From a virus: a stretch of 26,105 nt of DNA. The stretch is from positions 1-26,105 of the IMG/VR virus record IMGVR_UViG_3300040807_002585; one strand, given 5' to 3'. A program made the position numbers and the translations under genes. Shown here piece after piece: positions 1 through 23,566 of the stretch (positions are counted from its first letter, which is position 1; each line of letters begins with the position of its first letter). The notes under the pieces were generated by a model. It was not told where the DNA came from and made no database searches. It saw only the letters and a list, made by a program, of their open reading frames with translations.

Positions 1-1059
1 GCTGTACAGTATCACGGCCGCCTGCGGAACTTCAAGGACGCTGAAACGGCCTACCGTTGCGGGCAGTTCCTTGCTGGCTATGTTCTCGGCAACAGCTCAG
101 CCCGCGATTGGTGCGAGCGGAACGACGTTTACACCCGAGCTATGGGCGGTGCGACCGGGAACGCTGGCGATGCTTTCGTTGACGACGTTCTGAGCCAGAC
201 CCTCATCCGCAATGTTGAGGAAAAGAACGAAGTATATACGGAAATGCAGCGGTTCCCGATGACCTCGGACACCCTGCTGATTCCGCGGCGTACTGGTGGT
301 TTCACTGGTGCCTGGGTGGCTGAGAACGCTGAGATTTCGACTAGCGATGCCAGTGCAAATCAGGTGCAGCTGGTGGCGTCGGCCTACGGCACGGGAGTCA
401 GGGTCAGCAACGCTCTTATTTCTGACTCAGTGATTGATCTCTCAGAGATGGTTGTGACTGAGTTCACCAGCACCTATACCGCAGCCCTGACTGAAGCCGT
501 TGTGAACGGGGACGGTTCCAGCAGCTTCGGAAGCATCACGGGCATCCTCGACAGCACCGGCGGCATTCTCGCTGCTGGTTCTGCCGGTTGCCTGCACACC
601 ACCGACGTGGGCAACAATCTGCCGACCGAGGTCACCGTGGACGACATCGTTTCAGTGCTTGCTAAGGCTAATCGGTACAGCCTGCCTAACGCTCGCTGGA
701 TCGTCTCGCCTTATGTCTTCCATACCGTGTTTCAGCGGTTGGATTTGGCGCAGGGCATCAGCTCGCTGCAAGAAGGTGCTGGGCCTAACTTCATGGGCTA
801 TCCAGTGGTGCTGTCGCAGGCGATGCCTGGTAGCTCCGCTGGTGCCGGTGATGTGATTGCCCTCTTTGGTGATTTCAGCCGGGCCGGTGCTTTCGGCATC
901 CGCCGCGACTTTGAAATCAAGAGCAGCACCGACAGGTACATGGAATACGATCAGACGCTTCTGATCGGGACACTTAGGGCAACCGCTAAGTGGTTTGACC
1001 TTGGCACCGCCAGCACCGCTGGCCCGGTTGTCGGCCTCAAGCTCGGCGCAGCCTCCTAG
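1..1059 (+). CDS. Major capsid protein, HK97 fold (5' end outside window)
   Basis: The frame is open from base 1 with no stop, so the first ATG inside the window (142) is internal; about 352 residues are visible. The protein shows the usual pattern of phage HK97-type capsid subunits: an N-terminal stretch with several Arg/Trp residues, then ARWIVSP, a conserved helix and beta-rich core, FMGYPVVLSQAMP near two thirds, GDFSRAGAFGIRRDFEIK, and a final TLRATAKWFDLG strand. It would form the icosahedral shell. The N-terminal scaffolding (delta) region and any protease site lie upstream. It is the first structural gene here, is followed by a strong hairpin, and leads into the head-tail connector genes, which is the normal siphovirus order. 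Family assignment is from motif memory; confidence is high. Confidence 0.9.
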   Translation, partial: AVQYHGRLRNFKDAETAYRCGQFLAGYVLGNSSARDWCERNDVYTRAMGGATGNAGDAFVDDVLSQTLIRNVEEKNEVYTEMQRFPMTSDTLLIPRRTGGFTGAWVAENAEISTSDASANQVQLVASAYGTGVRVSNALISDSVIDLSEMVVTEFTSTYTAALTEAVVNGDGSSSFGSITGILDSTGGILAAGSAGCLHTTDVGNNLPTEVTVDDIVSVLAKANRYSLPNARWIVSPYVFHTVFQRLDLAQGISSLQEGAGPNFMGYPVVLSQAMPGSSAGAGDVIALFGDFSRAGAFGIRRDFEIKSSTDRYMEYDQTLLIGTLRATAKWFDLGTASTAGPVVGLKLGAAS

Positions 1060-18439: not shown

Positions 18440-19594
18440 ATGAACTACGCAAGCGTCTGCGACGGCATCGGGGCGGCTCATGTGGCATGGGAGCCGCTTG
18501 GATGGGCTTGCCAATGGACCAGCGAGATTGAGCCGTTCCCGGCTGCGGTTGTCGAGCACCACTACGGATTTCGCAATCTCGGGGACATGACGGCGATCAC
18601 GGAGGTAATGCTTGATGCGGCAGTTGAACTTCTTGTCGGAGGCACACCTTGCCAATCATTCTCAGTCGCTGGCCTGCGAAGAGGATTGGCAGACCCGCGT
18701 GGAAACCTGGCCCTCCGATTCATACAGCTTGCTGCTGTCATGCAGCCCGAGTGGATCGTTTGGGAAAACGTGCCAGGCGTGCTTAGTAGCGGCAAAGGAC
18801 GGGATTTTGGAACCTTCCTCGGAGCGTTGGCAAAACTCGGGTATGGGTTCGCCTACCGAGTTCTTGACGCTCAATGGTTTGGAGTCGCCCAGCGACGTCG
18901 CCGTGTGTTTGTTGTCGGCCACCTTGGAGACTGGCGACGTGCCGCAGCGGTACTTTTTGAGCGCGAAAGCGTGTTCGGGAATCCTCCGACGCGCGGAGCG
19001 GCGGGGGAAGAAGCTACCGGCACAATTGCTGGCTGCTCTAACGGCGGCGGCGCAAATGGGCCCGGCAGAACAGCAGACGATGCCGACACGCTCGTATGGC
19101 GCGGCGGCGACCAATCAAACAGCGAGCACTGCATTGACCACGCCGGGACGCTCAACTGCGACAAGGGGCAGCAAGGCGGCATCGTAGGCTTTCACCCCGT
19201 TCAAGACCCGATCAGCAGCACCGACGGTTCGACGCATTCAATGGGCTGCGGCTCCAAGCAGGGCTGCTGTACGCAGGCGGTGGCGTTCAAGGAATCCCAG
19301 AGCGGATGCCGCACTGGCTCAGTCCACGCCACTCTTGACGCAAACAAAGGCAGTCGCCGCATGGAAGGCGTGCTGTCAGCAATGGCTGTCCGCCGCCTGA
19401 CGCCCCGAGAGTGTGAGCGGCTCCAAGGCTTTCCCGACGACTACACGCTCGTCACCTACCGCAACAAGCCAGCCGCAGACAGTCCGCGATACAAGGCGCT
19501 CGGCAACTCAATGGCGGTGCCGGTCATGCGATGGATCGGCCAAAGAATCGCGCAAGTTAGGAGGCCAGCGGCGGAGCCGCTGCGTCAAGGATGA
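18440..19594 (+). CDS. dcm: DNA (cytosine-5) methyltransferase
   Basis: 384 residues; GAGGAG (18426-18431) precedes the ATG. It methylates cytosine C5 in DNA using SAM. Motif I is SVCDGIGAAHVAWEPLG (residues 5-21); motif IV GGTPCQSFSVAG has the catalytic Cys71; motif VI is ENVPG (109-113); motif VIII QRRRR (151-155); motif IX RRLTPRECERLQGFP (318-332); motif X GNSM (355-358). Residues about 180-310 are the variable target-recognition region. It may protect phage DNA from host restriction. A second reading frame of 190 codons is nested inside (18615-19187). A terminator follows. Confidence 0.9.
   Translation: MNYASVCDGIGAAHVAWEPLGWACQWTSEIEPFPAAVVEHHYGFRNLGDMTAITEVMLDAAVELLVGGTPCQSFSVAGLRRGLADPRGNLALRFIQLAAVMQPEWIVWENVPGVLSSGKGRDFGTFLGALAKLGYGFAYRVLDAQWFGVAQRRRRVFVVGHLGDWRRAAAVLFERESVFGNPPTRGAAGEEATGTIAGCSNGGGANGPGRTADDADTLVWRGGDQSNSEHCIDHAGTLNCDKGQQGGIVGFHPVQDPISSTDGSTHSMGCGSKQGCCTQAVAFKESQSGCRTGSVHATLDANKGSRRMEGVLSAMAVRRLTPRECERLQGFPDDYTLVTYRNKPAADSPRYKALGNSMAVPVMRWIGQRIAQVRRPAAEPLRQG
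18615..19187 (+). CDS. ORF nested inside dcm in another frame, conserved-looking
   Basis: 190 residues in the +1 frame of dcm, from ATG 18615 with a perfect GGAGGT at 18601-18606 (8-nt spacer) that lies within the dcm coding sequence. The product looks like a protein rather than noise: WQTRVETWPSDSYSLLLSCS, then GKTCQACLVAA, ILEPSSERWQNSGMGSP, TLETGDVPQRYFLSAKAC and SGILRRAERRGKKLP. From memory, the (Tyr/Phe)-Leu-Ser-x-Lys-Ala...Gly-Ile-Leu-Arg-Arg-Ala...Arg-Gly-Lys signature occurs in many phage hypothetical proteins linked to methyltransferases. Its function is unknown. Whether it is translated needs proof. Confidence 0.5.
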   Translation: MRQLNFLSEAHLANHSQSLACEEDWQTRVETWPSDSYSLLLSCSPSGSFGKTCQACLVAAKDGILEPSSERWQNSGMGSPTEFLTLNGLESPSDVAVCLLSATLETGDVPQRYFLSAKACSGILRRAERRGKKLPAQLLAALTAAAQMGPAEQQTMPTRSYGAAATNQTASTALTTPGRSTATRGSKAAS

Positions 19595-19664: not shown

Positions 19665-20480
19665 ATGACAACAGCACTTTCAACAACGCAGCCGCGGGGG
19701 CTGGCACTTCAGACGATCAGCGAGGCGATGACGTTCGGCAAGATGCTTGCCGAGTCGAGCTTCGTCCCGAAGGACTTCCGCGGCAAGCCTGCCGACTGCG
19801 TTCTGGCCGTCCAGCACGGTGCAGAGTTGGGCCTCGGCCCGATGCAGAGCGTTCAGAGCATCGCAGTGGTCAACGGTCGCCCGTCGATCTATGGCGATGC
19901 CGCCATTGCACTCGCCAAGGGCTCGCCGGTCTGCGAGTACATCAGCGAGCGGATCGAGGGCGACGGCGACCAGATGGCCGCAGTCTGCGAGGCGAAACGC
20001 CGCGGCGATCCGCAGCCGACCGTCAGCACGTTTAGCGTTGCCGACGCCAAGAAAGCGGGGCTGTGGGGCAAGTCTGGCCCGTGGCAGCAGTACCCGAAGC
20101 GGATGCTCCAGATGCGAGCCCGAGGCTTCGCACTGCGTGACGCTTTTCCTGACGTTCTCCGCGGCCTGGTGACCGCCGAAGAGGCCCAAGACTACACGCA
20201 CGTCGAGCCCGTCAGGAGCGAGCCACGGCCGCCGGTCGAGGTGCGGCCAAAGTTTGATCGTGAAGACCCGACGCCGCGGCCGCTGGAGGAGACCGATCCT
20301 CTTGCCCGTGCCCGCCTGGCGGTCAGCAACGCAAAGACCATCGCTGACTGCGACCGCATCAGGGCCAGGGCAATCGAGCTGGCCGAGGCTGGCGAGTGGA
20401 CCGAGGAGCAGGCCGACGAGATCAAGAAGCTGCTGTTTCACAAAGCCGAGATGTTGATCGGTGAGGAGGTGCCAGCATGA
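19665..20480 (+). CDS. RecT-like single-strand annealing protein
   Basis: 271 residues with AAAGGA upstream. Features of phage RecT/Bet-type recombinases: ALQTISEAMTFGKMLAESSF, VPKDFRGKPADCVLAVQHGA, LGLGPMQSVQSIAVVNGRPS (residues 56-75), then GPWQQYPKRMLQMRARGFAL (138-157) and RDAFPDVLRGLVTAEEAQDY. These proteins anneal complementary single strands in phage recombination and replication. The C-terminal third is a charged, helix-rich tail. No exonuclease partner is obvious next to it; the PD-(D/E)XK-like protein at 23705 could be one, but that is speculative. Confidence 0.8.
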   Translation: MTTALSTTQPRGLALQTISEAMTFGKMLAESSFVPKDFRGKPADCVLAVQHGAELGLGPMQSVQSIAVVNGRPSIYGDAAIALAKGSPVCEYISERIEGDGDQMAAVCEAKRRGDPQPTVSTFSVADAKKAGLWGKSGPWQQYPKRMLQMRARGFALRDAFPDVLRGLVTAEEAQDYTHVEPVRSEPRPPVEVRPKFDREDPTPRPLEETDPLARARLAVSNAKTIADCDRIRARAIELAEAGEWTEEQADEIKKLLFHKAEMLIGEEVPA

Positions 20481-20737: not shown

Positions 20738-20976
20738 CCAACCGCACCCCAGCGGCCGCAGCTGAAGCCACGCGGACAGGGGAGCCCAGCGGGCGGTGGC
20801 TAGTAACACCCGCAGCAGCGGCCGATGACGTCTCCCTTGCAATCGGTGACGCTGCCGCTTGCCCAGCGTTACAGGGCCAACACAATTACAAGGAGGTGTC
20901 AAGTGCAACAACTTTGCTTGGAGACAGGATCAATGAAAAAACGTGCTGCAAACAAGCTCGCCTCTTTGTGCGATGA
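20734..20976 (+). CDS. Possible small early protein (80 aa), uncertain
   Basis: ATGA overlap with the previous gene is the main evidence. The product is Ala/Thr-rich (MTNRTPAAAAEATRTGEPSG) with no recognised motif, and its last 74 nt overlap the ParB-like gene in another frame. It could be a spurious extension of the operon or a real short protein. Codon use is similar to the neighbours in the first 150 nt. Confidence 0.4.
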   Translation: MTNRTPAAAAEATRTGEPSGRWLVTPAAAADDVSLAIGDAAACPALQGQHNYKEVSSATTLLGDRINEKTCCKQARLFVR

Positions 20977-21592
20977 GCTTAGGCAAATGGACTTGGAAGA
21001 TCAGGTCAGCTTCCTTAACGAAGCCAGAGCGATGCTTCACAAGGCAGGGCCATTTGCGGCAGAGCCGGTGGACTGTGTGACGTGGGTGCCTGCCGAAACG
21101 GTTGCGGCTAACGACTACAACCCAAACAGCGTTGCGCCGCCAGAAATGAAATTGCTGGAGCGGTCTATTGATGCGGACGGATACACGCAACCAATAGTTT
21201 CTTGGCAAAGAGACGACGCAAGGGAAGTGGTTGATGGATTTCACCGGCATCGAGTCGGGAAAGAATCGAAAAGCGTCCGCGCTCGCGTTCACGGATATTT
21301 GCCGGTCGTCACGATCAACGCTGAGCGGGAAGACAAAGGCGACCGAATGGCCGCCACGATCCGGCACAACAGGGCTCGGGGGAAGCATCGCGTCGATGCC
21401 ATGTCAGAGATTGTCATCGAACTGAAACGTCGTCGATGGTCTGACGAGAAGATCGGCAAAGAGCTTGGCATGGACCCAGACGAGGTGCTGCGATTAACGC
21501 AGGTCAGCGGGCTTGCCGAGATGTTTGCAGACAAGGAGTTTTCCGAGGCGTGGGAAGCCGACCGAATGGAGGAAATGCTAGATGAAACCTGA
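20903..21592 (+). CDS. ParB-like nuclease-domain protein, IbrB type
   Basis: 229 residues from GTG 20903 with AAGGAGG at 20890-20896; ATG 20933 is an alternative. The ParB/sulfiredoxin core spans about 55-140: VTWVPAETVAANDYNPN, SIDADGYTQPIV and VVDGFHRHRVGK. A helix-turn-helix region (178-205) has RRRWSDEKIGKELGMDPDEV then LRLTQVSGLAEMFA. This matches IbrB, the partner of IbrA in E. coli, whose pair affects immunoglobulin-binding gene expression. An IbrA-like gene lies 760 nt downstream. Role here unknown: DNA-binding partner or DNA modification are options. Confidence 0.8.
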   Translation: MQQLCLETGSMKKRAANKLASLCDELRQMDLEDQVSFLNEARAMLHKAGPFAAEPVDCVTWVPAETVAANDYNPNSVAPPEMKLLERSIDADGYTQPIVSWQRDDAREVVDGFHRHRVGKESKSVRARVHGYLPVVTINAEREDKGDRMAATIRHNRARGKHRVDAMSEIVIELKRRRWSDEKIGKELGMDPDEVLRLTQVSGLAEMFADKEFSEAWEADRMEEMLDET

Positions 21593-21974
21593 CTTCCGCC
21601 CATACACCGAATGGGAAGATTACAAGGCAGGGATGTACGGCGACGCCAGCTCATCCGACCGTGAGCATCTGACTAAAGCCGCCGTGGCCTTGCTGGCAGA
21701 CCAGCACCGGCTAGTGGCTGCAATGCGGTCAGTCACTACCGAGTGGCGGCTTGCTGCAGAAGCAAACCTTCATGAACTGCCTAATAACCGAGCATGGCTA
21801 GGGCAGGCGGCTTGCTGCTATGTCGCTGGTGTGCCGGAAGCGCTGACCCGCTCGGCCTGGGGCAACCTAGATGACGCGGAGCGTGCGGCGGCGAATCGGG
21901 TTGCGGACCAAGTGATTGACGAGTGGCGGTATCGCACTCGCCGCAACCCGCAAAAGGAACTGTTCCATGATTGA
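21582..21974 (+). CDS. Small early hypothetical protein (130 aa)
   Basis: ATG 21582 with GGAGG at 21568-21572, overlapping the ParB-like gene by 11 nt. All-helical composition; the C-terminal part, ACCYVAGVPEALTRSAWGNL then AAANRVADQVIDEW, resembles a family of uncharacterised phage proteins from memory. Overlaps the GNAT gene by 8 nt, so it belongs to the same cassette. Function unknown. Confidence 0.6.
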   Translation: MKPDFRPYTEWEDYKAGMYGDASSSDREHLTKAAVALLADQHRLVAAMRSVTTEWRLAAEANLHELPNNRAWLGQAACCYVAGVPEALTRSAWGNLDDAERAAANRVADQVIDEWRYRTRRNPQKELFHD

Positions 21975-22359
21975 CCCCATTCGGATTGAAAGTCTCGATC
22001 GCAAAAACAAGCGGTTCTACGGCCTTTTCGGCCCTGTGTTTGGCAGCCGTGCGATTGCCAAGCAAGTAGGCATACCGGCTTATGACGATGCGGACAAGGT
22101 TTGGCTCGCTGCTTTTTCTGGTGATGTGATGGTTGGGTGGCTGTCTGTTCGCGGTCGCGTTGTCTCGGATTGCTACGTCACAGAAGAGCACCGCAATCTC
22201 GGCGTTCTTAGCAAGCTTCTTGCCACGGCTATCGCATCATTCGATGGCCCATTGCGTGCGACATGCACAGCCGCAAGCGTTGGCGTGTTTCGCAAAGCAG
22301 GATTTAAGGTGGTTCGCAGAACCAAGAATTTCACAGTTATGGAGTTACACAATGCCTAA
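21967..22359 (+). CDS. GNAT-family acetyltransferase
   Basis: 130 residues from ATG 21967. The central VWLAAFSGDVMVGWLSVRGR and VVSDCYVTEEHRNLGVLSKL segments show the GNAT strand 4 and acetyl-CoA pyrophosphate loop (here EEHRNLGVLSKLL rather than the usual RxxGxG/A), followed by a helix and SVGVFRKAGFKVVRR, the family's last motif. It could acetylate a nucleotide, protein or sugar. Phage GNATs are also known in DNA base modification (Mom-like). The 8-nt overlaps on both sides place it inside the ParB-like / PAPS-reductase-like cassette. Confidence 0.75.
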   Translation: MIDPIRIESLDRKNKRFYGLFGPVFGSRAIAKQVGIPAYDDADKVWLAAFSGDVMVGWLSVRGRVVSDCYVTEEHRNLGVLSKLLATAIASFDGPLRATCTAASVGVFRKAGFKVVRRTKNFTVMELHNA

Positions 22360-23566
22360 GAAACCTCTTGGTATTAACGTGCTTGAGGCTGCGCGGCAAC
22401 GAATAGCGTGGACCTTCGACACGTTTGAAAGAGTGTATTGCTCTTTCAGTGCGGGCAAGGACTCGACCGCGATGATGCACTTAATCATGGATGAGGCCCG
22501 CAATCGCGACAAAAAGATTGGTGTTCTTTTCATTGATTGGGAGTGCCAGTTTTCTATGACAATCAGGCACGCTCGTCGGATGTTTGACGAGTACGCTGAC
22601 CATATTGATCCGTACTGGGTTGCCGTTCCTATGACAACGTGGAACGGATGCAGCCAGCATGAGCCGGAATGGATCGCTTGGGAGGAAGGCAAGCAGTGGG
22701 TTCGCGAGAAAGAGGATATTTCAATCAAGGATGGAAAGTTTTTCGACTTCTATCTGCCCAACATGATGTTCGAGGAATTCGTGCCGTTGTTTGCGCAGTG
22801 GTACGGTCGTGGTGAAAAGACCGCCTGTTTCGTCGGCATCCGCACACAAGAGAGCCTCAACAGGTTTCGCACCGTTGCGAGGCGAAAAGAAATGGCGGAC
22901 GGGCGGCCGTTCACAACCCGCGTTGTCGATGACTGTTGGAACGTATACCCGATTTACGATTGGCAAACAGAAGACATCTGGGCATACGCGGGAAAGACCG
23001 GGAAGTTTTACAACCCGCTGTATGACCGGATGCACCAAGCGGGCATGACGATTCATCAGATGCGAATCTGCGAGCCCTTTGGGGACACTCAGCGTCAAAG
23101 CCTGTGGCTTTACCAAGTAGTTGAGCCTGAGATGTGGTCAAAGCTGGTTTATCGCGTGGCAGGTGCAAACACAGGCGCATTGTACGGGAATGAACGAGGC
23201 AACGTGCTCGGCAACCGAGACATCACTTGCCCGGCCGGGCATACATGGAAGTCTTACGTGATGTTTTTGTTGCGGTCGATGCCGCCGAAAACAGGCGAGC
23301 ACTACCGCAACAAGATTGCCGTGTACCTGAGGTGGTGGAAAGAACGCGGATACCCCGAAGACATACCGCACGAGGCAGACAAAAAACTTGAGACGATGGG
23401 CAAGGCTCCTAGCTGGCGGAAGGTCGCTAAGTCGATTTTGCGAAACGACTACTGGTGCCGATGGCTTGGGTTCTCTCCAACAAAAACTTCTGCCTATCAG
23501 AAATATACGGAGCTGATGCGAAGGCGTCGGAAGGAATGGCAGATTTTCGATGGGGCAGACGCGTGA
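22352..23566 (+). CDS. PAPS reductase-like PP-loop protein, IbrA / DUF3440 type
   Basis: 404 residues from ATG 22352 (GGAG at 22341-22344); a longer in-frame start at 22133 lies inside GNAT and is rejected. The PP-loop CSFSAGKDSTAMMHL (residues 30-44) is that of PAPS reductase / ATP pyrophosphatases. Next come LFIDWECQFSMTIRHARRMF, CFVGIRTQESLNRFR and VYPIYDWQTEDIWAYAG. The C-terminal part has CPAGHTWKSYVMFLLRSMPP and a Trp-rich region, matching DUF3440. With the ParB-like gene this is an IbrB/IbrA-like pair. It binds ATP or PAPS; what it modifies is unknown. Confidence 0.8.
   Translation: MPKKPLGINVLEAARQRIAWTFDTFERVYCSFSAGKDSTAMMHLIMDEARNRDKKIGVLFIDWECQFSMTIRHARRMFDEYADHIDPYWVAVPMTTWNGCSQHEPEWIAWEEGKQWVREKEDISIKDGKFFDFYLPNMMFEEFVPLFAQWYGRGEKTACFVGIRTQESLNRFRTVARRKEMADGRPFTTRVVDDCWNVYPIYDWQTEDIWAYAGKTGKFYNPLYDRMHQAGMTIHQMRICEPFGDTQRQSLWLYQVVEPEMWSKLVYRVAGANTGALYGNERGNVLGNRDITCPAGHTWKSYVMFLLRSMPPKTGEHYRNKIAVYLRWWKERGYPEDIPHEADKKLETMGKAPSWRKVAKSILRNDYWCRWLGFSPTKTSAYQKYTELMRRRRKEWQIFDGADA

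Follow-up and report, generated by a model that had tools for sequence, protein, structure and literature searches.

The small-subunit gene of the C5-cytosine methyltransferase M.EcoHK31I lies nested within its large-subunit gene. M.EcoHK31I (YGGCCR; Lee, Kam and Shaw 1995) is a two-polypeptide enzyme in which the large chain carries motifs I to VIII, motif X and the TRD, and the small chain carries motif IX (PMC3404938). M.AquI (CYCGRG) is a split C5 methyltransferase with two subunits divided after motif VIII (PMC3404938). The ShiLan element is an out-of-frame HNH endonuclease found in a phage methylase (PMC11855218). Two-polypeptide C5 methyltransferases have been described before, and in a few records the second frame carries an annotation (ORF14 of the streptococcal phage MM1 and gp77 of mycobacteriophage Medusa). 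In the open literature we found no description of the nested family reported here, of its breadth, of its selection signature or of the variant in which the main chain retains all motifs.

The window analysed is a 26,105-nucleotide stretch of viral DNA (IMG/VR record IMGVR_UViG_3300040807_002585) in which a second reading frame lies wholly within a dcm gene. The features are as follows.

18440..19594, + strand: dcm, the alpha chain, a C5-cytosine methyltransferase of 384 aa
Within dcm, by inspection: motifs I, IV (PCQ), VI (ENV), VIII (QRRRR), IX (RRLTPRECERLQGFP) and X (GNSMAVP)
18601..18606, + strand: Shine-Dalgarno sequence GGAGGT of the nested gene, 8 nt before the ATG at 18615
18615..19187, + strand: nested gene, proposed beta subunit, +1 frame of dcm, 190 codons plus the stop codon TAG at 19185-19187
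18615..18902, + strand: N-terminal and middle part of the nested protein (QLTF.SE..A..S ... TSPASC ... SGMGSPTEFLTLN), with homology to class-2 and streptococcal-phage nested ORFs
18903..18962, + strand: hinge or TRD-start-like segment of the nested protein, VCLLSATLETGDVPQRYFLS, overlapping the end of motif VIII and the next dcm codons
18963..19064, + strand: C-terminal helical hairpin of the nested protein, AKACSGILRRAERRGKKLPAQLLAALTAAA, assigned from AF2 confidence
19065..19187, + strand: C-terminal tail of the nested ORF, poorly conserved

The dcm protein matches the Pfam DNA_methylase model (1.1e-53), and its AF2 model, in which the catalytic domain has high confidence and residues 180-307 have none, resembles M.HhaI and M.HaeIII (E 1e-15 to 1e-16). 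A RecT recombinase gene (window 19665-20480) lies directly 3' of dcm. In phage MM1 the Erf and SSB genes lie upstream, placing the methyltransferase/nested pair within an early recombination module. Downstream of RecT (window 20825-23566) a ParB-like gene, recognized by inspection, adjoins a PAPS-reductase plus DUF3440 gene, and we likened these to the IbrB/IbrA pair.

The sequence-only reading proposed that the nested frame begins at an ATG (18615-18617) with GGAGGT 8 nt upstream and runs for 190 open codons in the +1 frame of dcm, and the sequence bears this out. It also placed methyltransferase motifs IV, VI and VIII within the overlap, and all three (PCQ, ENV and QRRRR) are found there. 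Taken in this window alone the length of the nested frame is unremarkable: upon shuffling of the codons of this single gene (61% GC) with preservation of its protein, 33% of the shuffles left the +1 frame open for 192 codons or more. An equally long frame in a third of the shuffles of this one gene is what would be seen if the frame were open merely through the dcm protein sequence and codon usage. The start signal is less readily produced by chance, as the arrangement GGAGGW-5..9-ATG was seen once in the nested frame versus an expected 0.07 per gene. In most relatives the nested ORF has only 140-160 codons and stops at residues 147-170, and because of this the last 40 or so residues in the window are regarded as a poorly conserved tail.

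Stronger evidence came from relatives, which for the main test were picked by the dcm protein alone in order to avoid circularity (80 loci, reduced to 71 by removal of near-copies). Stops in the nested frame of dcm relatives had been named beforehand as one observation that would count against a gene. The +1 frame was free of stops across the overlap in 70 of the 71 relatives, versus 3.2 expected from synonymous codon shuffling, and the controls (the +2 frame and both flanks of the same relatives) behaved as expected. The synonymous-site comparison of aligned dcm homologues that had been suggested gave an observed/expected ratio of synonymous change of 0.92 in the upstream flank, 0.52 in the overlap and 0.89 in the downstream flank, and thus constraint exactly where the frames coincide. 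The lowest rate, 0.19, fell at dcm codons 177-192, at the end of the overlap in the hinge segment. Over dcm codons 161-204 the most variable base was codon position 1 (0.43 versus 0.25 and 0.25), which is the third (wobble) base of the nested codons. Identity of the nested proteins over the overlap was 0.582, versus 0.288 +/- 0.002 in simulations that preserved the Dcm proteins, and over dcm codons 166-196 the nested protein was more conserved than Dcm itself (0.742 versus 0.561). Stop depletion, synonymous constraint and the wobble-phase switch, all in sets chosen by the dcm frame only, refute the view that the frame is a by-product of dcm composition, an explanation we regard as having almost no chance of being correct. 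A nucleotide-level element (RNA structure, or a packaging or replication signal) with no second protein would account for synonymous constraint by itself. However, such an element should not make variation peak at the wobble base of the nested codons, the constraint extends over about 145 codons and the amino acids are conserved across phyla; hence this explanation is exceedingly improbable.

The same behavior was seen in sets built from other enzymes. When relatives of the MM1 enzyme were collected through their methyltransferase frame, the nested frame was open in 62 of 63 (0.12 expected) with synonymous constraint limited to codons ~41-180. In a second methyltransferase class it was open in 59 of 65 (5.8 expected), likewise with synonymous constraint. 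Where the nested start could be aligned among 136 non-redundant relatives it was ATG in 108 and TTG in 17, and an SD-like tetramer preceded 106 of these 125 assigned starts. Because of the stop depletion, synonymous constraint and wobble-phase switch in relatives, the nested product is under selection as a protein, and we consider it close to certain from these comparisons that the frame is a true overprinted gene with protein-level selection in both frames. The proposal of true overprinting in preference to a shadow ORF thus stands.

The nested frame is found in phages and prophages of Proteobacteria, Acidobacteria, Planctomycetes, Verrucomicrobia and Actinobacteria, in elements of Streptococcus, Lactococcus, Ruminococcus and Bifidobacterium, and in phage P1 dmt, Omega-type mycobacteriophages, jumbo Caulobacter phages, Vibrio phages and S. 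thermophilus phage 5093 (L251). The C-terminal part of the P1 nested protein includes RYFLSSKACAGILR. P1 dmt (L001) and the enzyme of Enterobacter phage CobraSix (L002; putative N6-adenine methyltransferase) are large methyltransferases with the nested ORF in the C5 part. In Escherichia phage vB_EcoM-813R1 (L007, 1658-2255) a P1-like dmt frame is interrupted, and the nested frame is annotated as a hypothetical protein. The sequence-only reading had ascribed the signature of the nested protein to separate phage proteins. That view finds no support here: all of the homologues located, at 168 viral/phage loci and 80 bacterial-genome loci as well as in further sets, are read in the +1 frame of a C5 methyltransferase, and the checked matches from viral contigs, bacterial genomes, phages and plasmids included no stand-alone homologue. 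The database entries MM1 ORF14 and phrog_16143 are nested frames themselves, and phrog_1008, considered as a stand-alone relative, turned out to be nested in the second methyltransferase class. The sole displaced case is gp104 of mycobacteriophage Thibault, an 81-aa protein consisting of the C-terminal module only, which overlaps a dcm frame bearing an HNH insertion (L255, Mycobacterium phage Thibault 1320-2844; the HNH gene is annotated). The split pair of Medusa comes closest to a detached version of the nested frame. Ordinary C5 methyltransferases of the same bacterial genomes have no counterpart of the nested frame. A 70-enzyme tree accounts for the trait with two changes of state at most, and would also allow a single origin of the frame.

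The nested protein gave no convincing match in Pfam, NCBIfam, PADLOC or PDB, and Foldseek with the beta model gave no match. AF2 assigned pLDDT >90 over most of residues 117-150, the C-terminal hairpin, which was the sole confident part and is degenerate or absent in streptococcal phages. The AF2 models of alpha and beta neither prove nor exclude a heterodimer. The phrog_16143 profile matched the window protein (9.6e-9) and 109 of 114 nested relatives, and MM1 ORF14 matched phrog_16143 end to end (273 bits). A homing endonuclease was considered and rejected: there is no HNH motif and no Pfam match, and the frame is present in every class-1 relative and is not inserted.

The second methyltransferase class gave one indication of function. 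The phrog_1008 profile matches the N-terminal part of the nested proteins, and its members in bacterial genomes are +1 ORFs within this other class of C5 methyltransferase. We assembled 65 non-redundant viral members of the class, selected by the main frame. Their main frames had motif X in all 65 and motif IX in none, and in 56 of the 65 the nested ORF contained the motif IX-like sequence LNPxWVEWLMGF. In class-1 relatives motif IX is in the large chain of 69 of 71, the window included. The Pfam DNA_methylase model gives no match to LNPxWVEWLMGF in the class-2 nested ORFs, and for this reason assignment of motif IX there rests on pattern, position and Medusa. These class-2 ORFs (L465-L544, L445-L464) are long, have WPTPT repeats and end in LNPxWVEWLMGFPxGWT, and PHROGs labels phrog_1008 a DNA methyltransferase. 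The nested proteins of the classes are homologous by hhalign (class 2 versus class 1, E=1.3e-8; class 2 versus the streptococcal-phage nested family, 9.9e-11), and class 1 matched four streptococcal/lactococcal-phage nested ORFs with E=1.9e-18. In Medusa (L545, 813-1908) gp78 contains motifs I to VIII, and gp77, in the +1 frame, contains a TRD-like region with IX-like and X sequences after it. The two genes are each annotated as DNA methylase, and the same adjacent pair is annotated in other mycobacteriophages.

Another indication came from the hinge, where the family consensus is SLSDxLETGDVPQRYFLS, the best conserved part being SLSDxLE..V..RYFLS. The main frame in the window's class lacks this hinge/TRD-start segment. 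Similar segments lie in frame after motif VIII in three one-chain phage enzymes, L547 (LLRDILEKEVDEKYFLS), L548 (RLKDILEDSVDEKYYLS) and L549 (RLVDILEKDVDESYYLS). The streptococcal nested profile gave these segments 29-36 bits, versus at best 6.8 bits among ~900 shuffled decoys and at most 4.3 for the main frames of nested genes, although the match is short (~26 aa) and the three enzymes were picked by a permissive search (E 0.005-0.3, full phage set), so that profile E-values overstate the case. The stronger point is that all three segments are in frame, in the right place and within a methyltransferase. A further 25 one-chain enzymes gave no match to the hinge pattern. Motif VIII and the hinge were always separated by exactly 8 codons in the 66 nested cases measured, versus 26-36 codons in frame in the one-chain enzymes, such as would be left by a deletion with a change of frame. 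The main chains of L549 and MM1 align closely through motif VIII and diverge there.

The invariable +1 shift and the placing of the hinge immediately beyond motif VIII, so that a fusion there would bring back the canonical order, could also be read as programmed +1 ribosomal frameshifting to give a Dcm-beta fusion and no free nested protein. However, the nested frame has its own start (ATG in 108 of the 136 relatives, with an SD-like sequence in 106) and is constrained well upstream of motif VIII, which makes frameshifting improbable.

We infer a subunit role for the nested protein because the homologous class-2 ORF has the motif IX that its main frame lacks, and because the hinge segment resembles in-frame methyltransferase sequence after motif VIII. 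Against a need for a subunit, the alpha chain of the window's class has all of the conserved motifs and, judged by these, could be active alone. This completeness would also fit an independent small protein (a methyltransferase regulator, anti-restriction factor or DNA-binding protein) that arose in dcm and remains linked because the two genes are inseparable. So would the lack of any counterpart of the N-terminal two thirds of beta in one-chain enzymes, and the basic and confidently helical C-terminal hairpin, which in the model could bind DNA or RNA. However, an independent protein would not be expected to occur only within C5 methyltransferases, to bear in class 2 the motif IX missing from the main frame, to encode IX and X in Medusa and to have a hinge homologous to in-frame methyltransferase sequence. 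We therefore view an independent protein as unlikely, though as a possibility to be taken seriously. It is probable, in our judgment, that the ORF is a real and ancient overprinted gene whose product is most likely the beta subunit of the surrounding methyltransferase.

The course of events for such a subunit might be as follows. A frameshifting deletion just after motif VIII would have split an ancestral one-chain enzyme into alpha, read in frame 0 with motifs I to VIII, and beta, read in the +1 frame from an internal SD/ATG. In M.EcoHK31I-like and Medusa-like enzymes motif IX would still come from beta, and in Medusa beta would supply motif X too. In the window's class the main frame would have regained the TRD, IX and X such that alpha has its own copies, and beta would have been reduced to ~150 aa, still providing the hinge segment along with, in this phage, a basic helical hairpin. 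One mRNA would then give both alpha and beta, which would assemble into an active enzyme for methylation of phage DNA, plausibly as protection from host restriction. We lean, with some reserve, to the broader reading that a superfamily of phage C5 methyltransferases spanning many bacterial phyla is encoded twice over, with an essential +1 subunit keeping the hinge/TRD-start (and in some lineages motif IX) and the main frame having re-invented the part lost.

To our knowledge long nested genes of bacteria or phages with more than one line of evidence are rare, and that of the window has three: stop depletion, synonymous constraint and the wobble-phase switch. The phages spanned range from those of Streptococcus and Lactococcus to those of Mycobacterium, Caulobacter and Vibrio and E. 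coli P1, mostly with one frame annotated. If the double-encoding reading is true, phage Dcm proteins annotated in their thousands as "monomeric" would really be heterodimers whose second subunit has escaped annotation, and codon-optimised versions of them would have no activity. If beta is required, workers using codon-optimised phage methyltransferases would have missed half of the enzyme, and phage anti-restriction methylation would need re-examination. In pneumophage SpSL1 the m5C enzyme shows activity in the native genome (PMC6755750), and that genome carries the nested frame. Past work on native genes would not have noticed a missing subunit because both frames are present there. With a frame shift after motif VIII, the origin of a new protein segment through overprinting would also become something that can be dated and tested.

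Comparison with described systems places the nested ORF as follows. It belongs to the same family as phrog_16143 ("DNA methyltransferase", 139 aa, MM1 ORF14 type), a misleading label since there is no catalytic motif; that profile describes the streptococcal-phage proteins and has no C-terminal hairpin. The N-terminal third of phrog_1008 ("DNA methyltransferase", 329 aa) is homologous to the window's nested protein, but phrog_1008 is nested in the second class, is about 200-300 aa and ends with the motif IX-like sequence. The ShiLan element is likewise an out-of-frame ORF hidden within a phage methylase gene, but is a homing insertion in the third frame with a patchy distribution, whereas the window's ORF has no HNH motif, overlaps the catalytic core and is inherited with it. 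Medusa gp78/gp77 looks similar to M.AquI in being split after motif VIII; in the window, unlike M.AquI, the second frame is enclosed completely by the first gene and stops short of motif IX. Finally, M.EcoHK31I as described has the same division of motifs as the class-2 relatives, and differs from the window's class, in which the large chain retains motif IX and the nested chain is without it.
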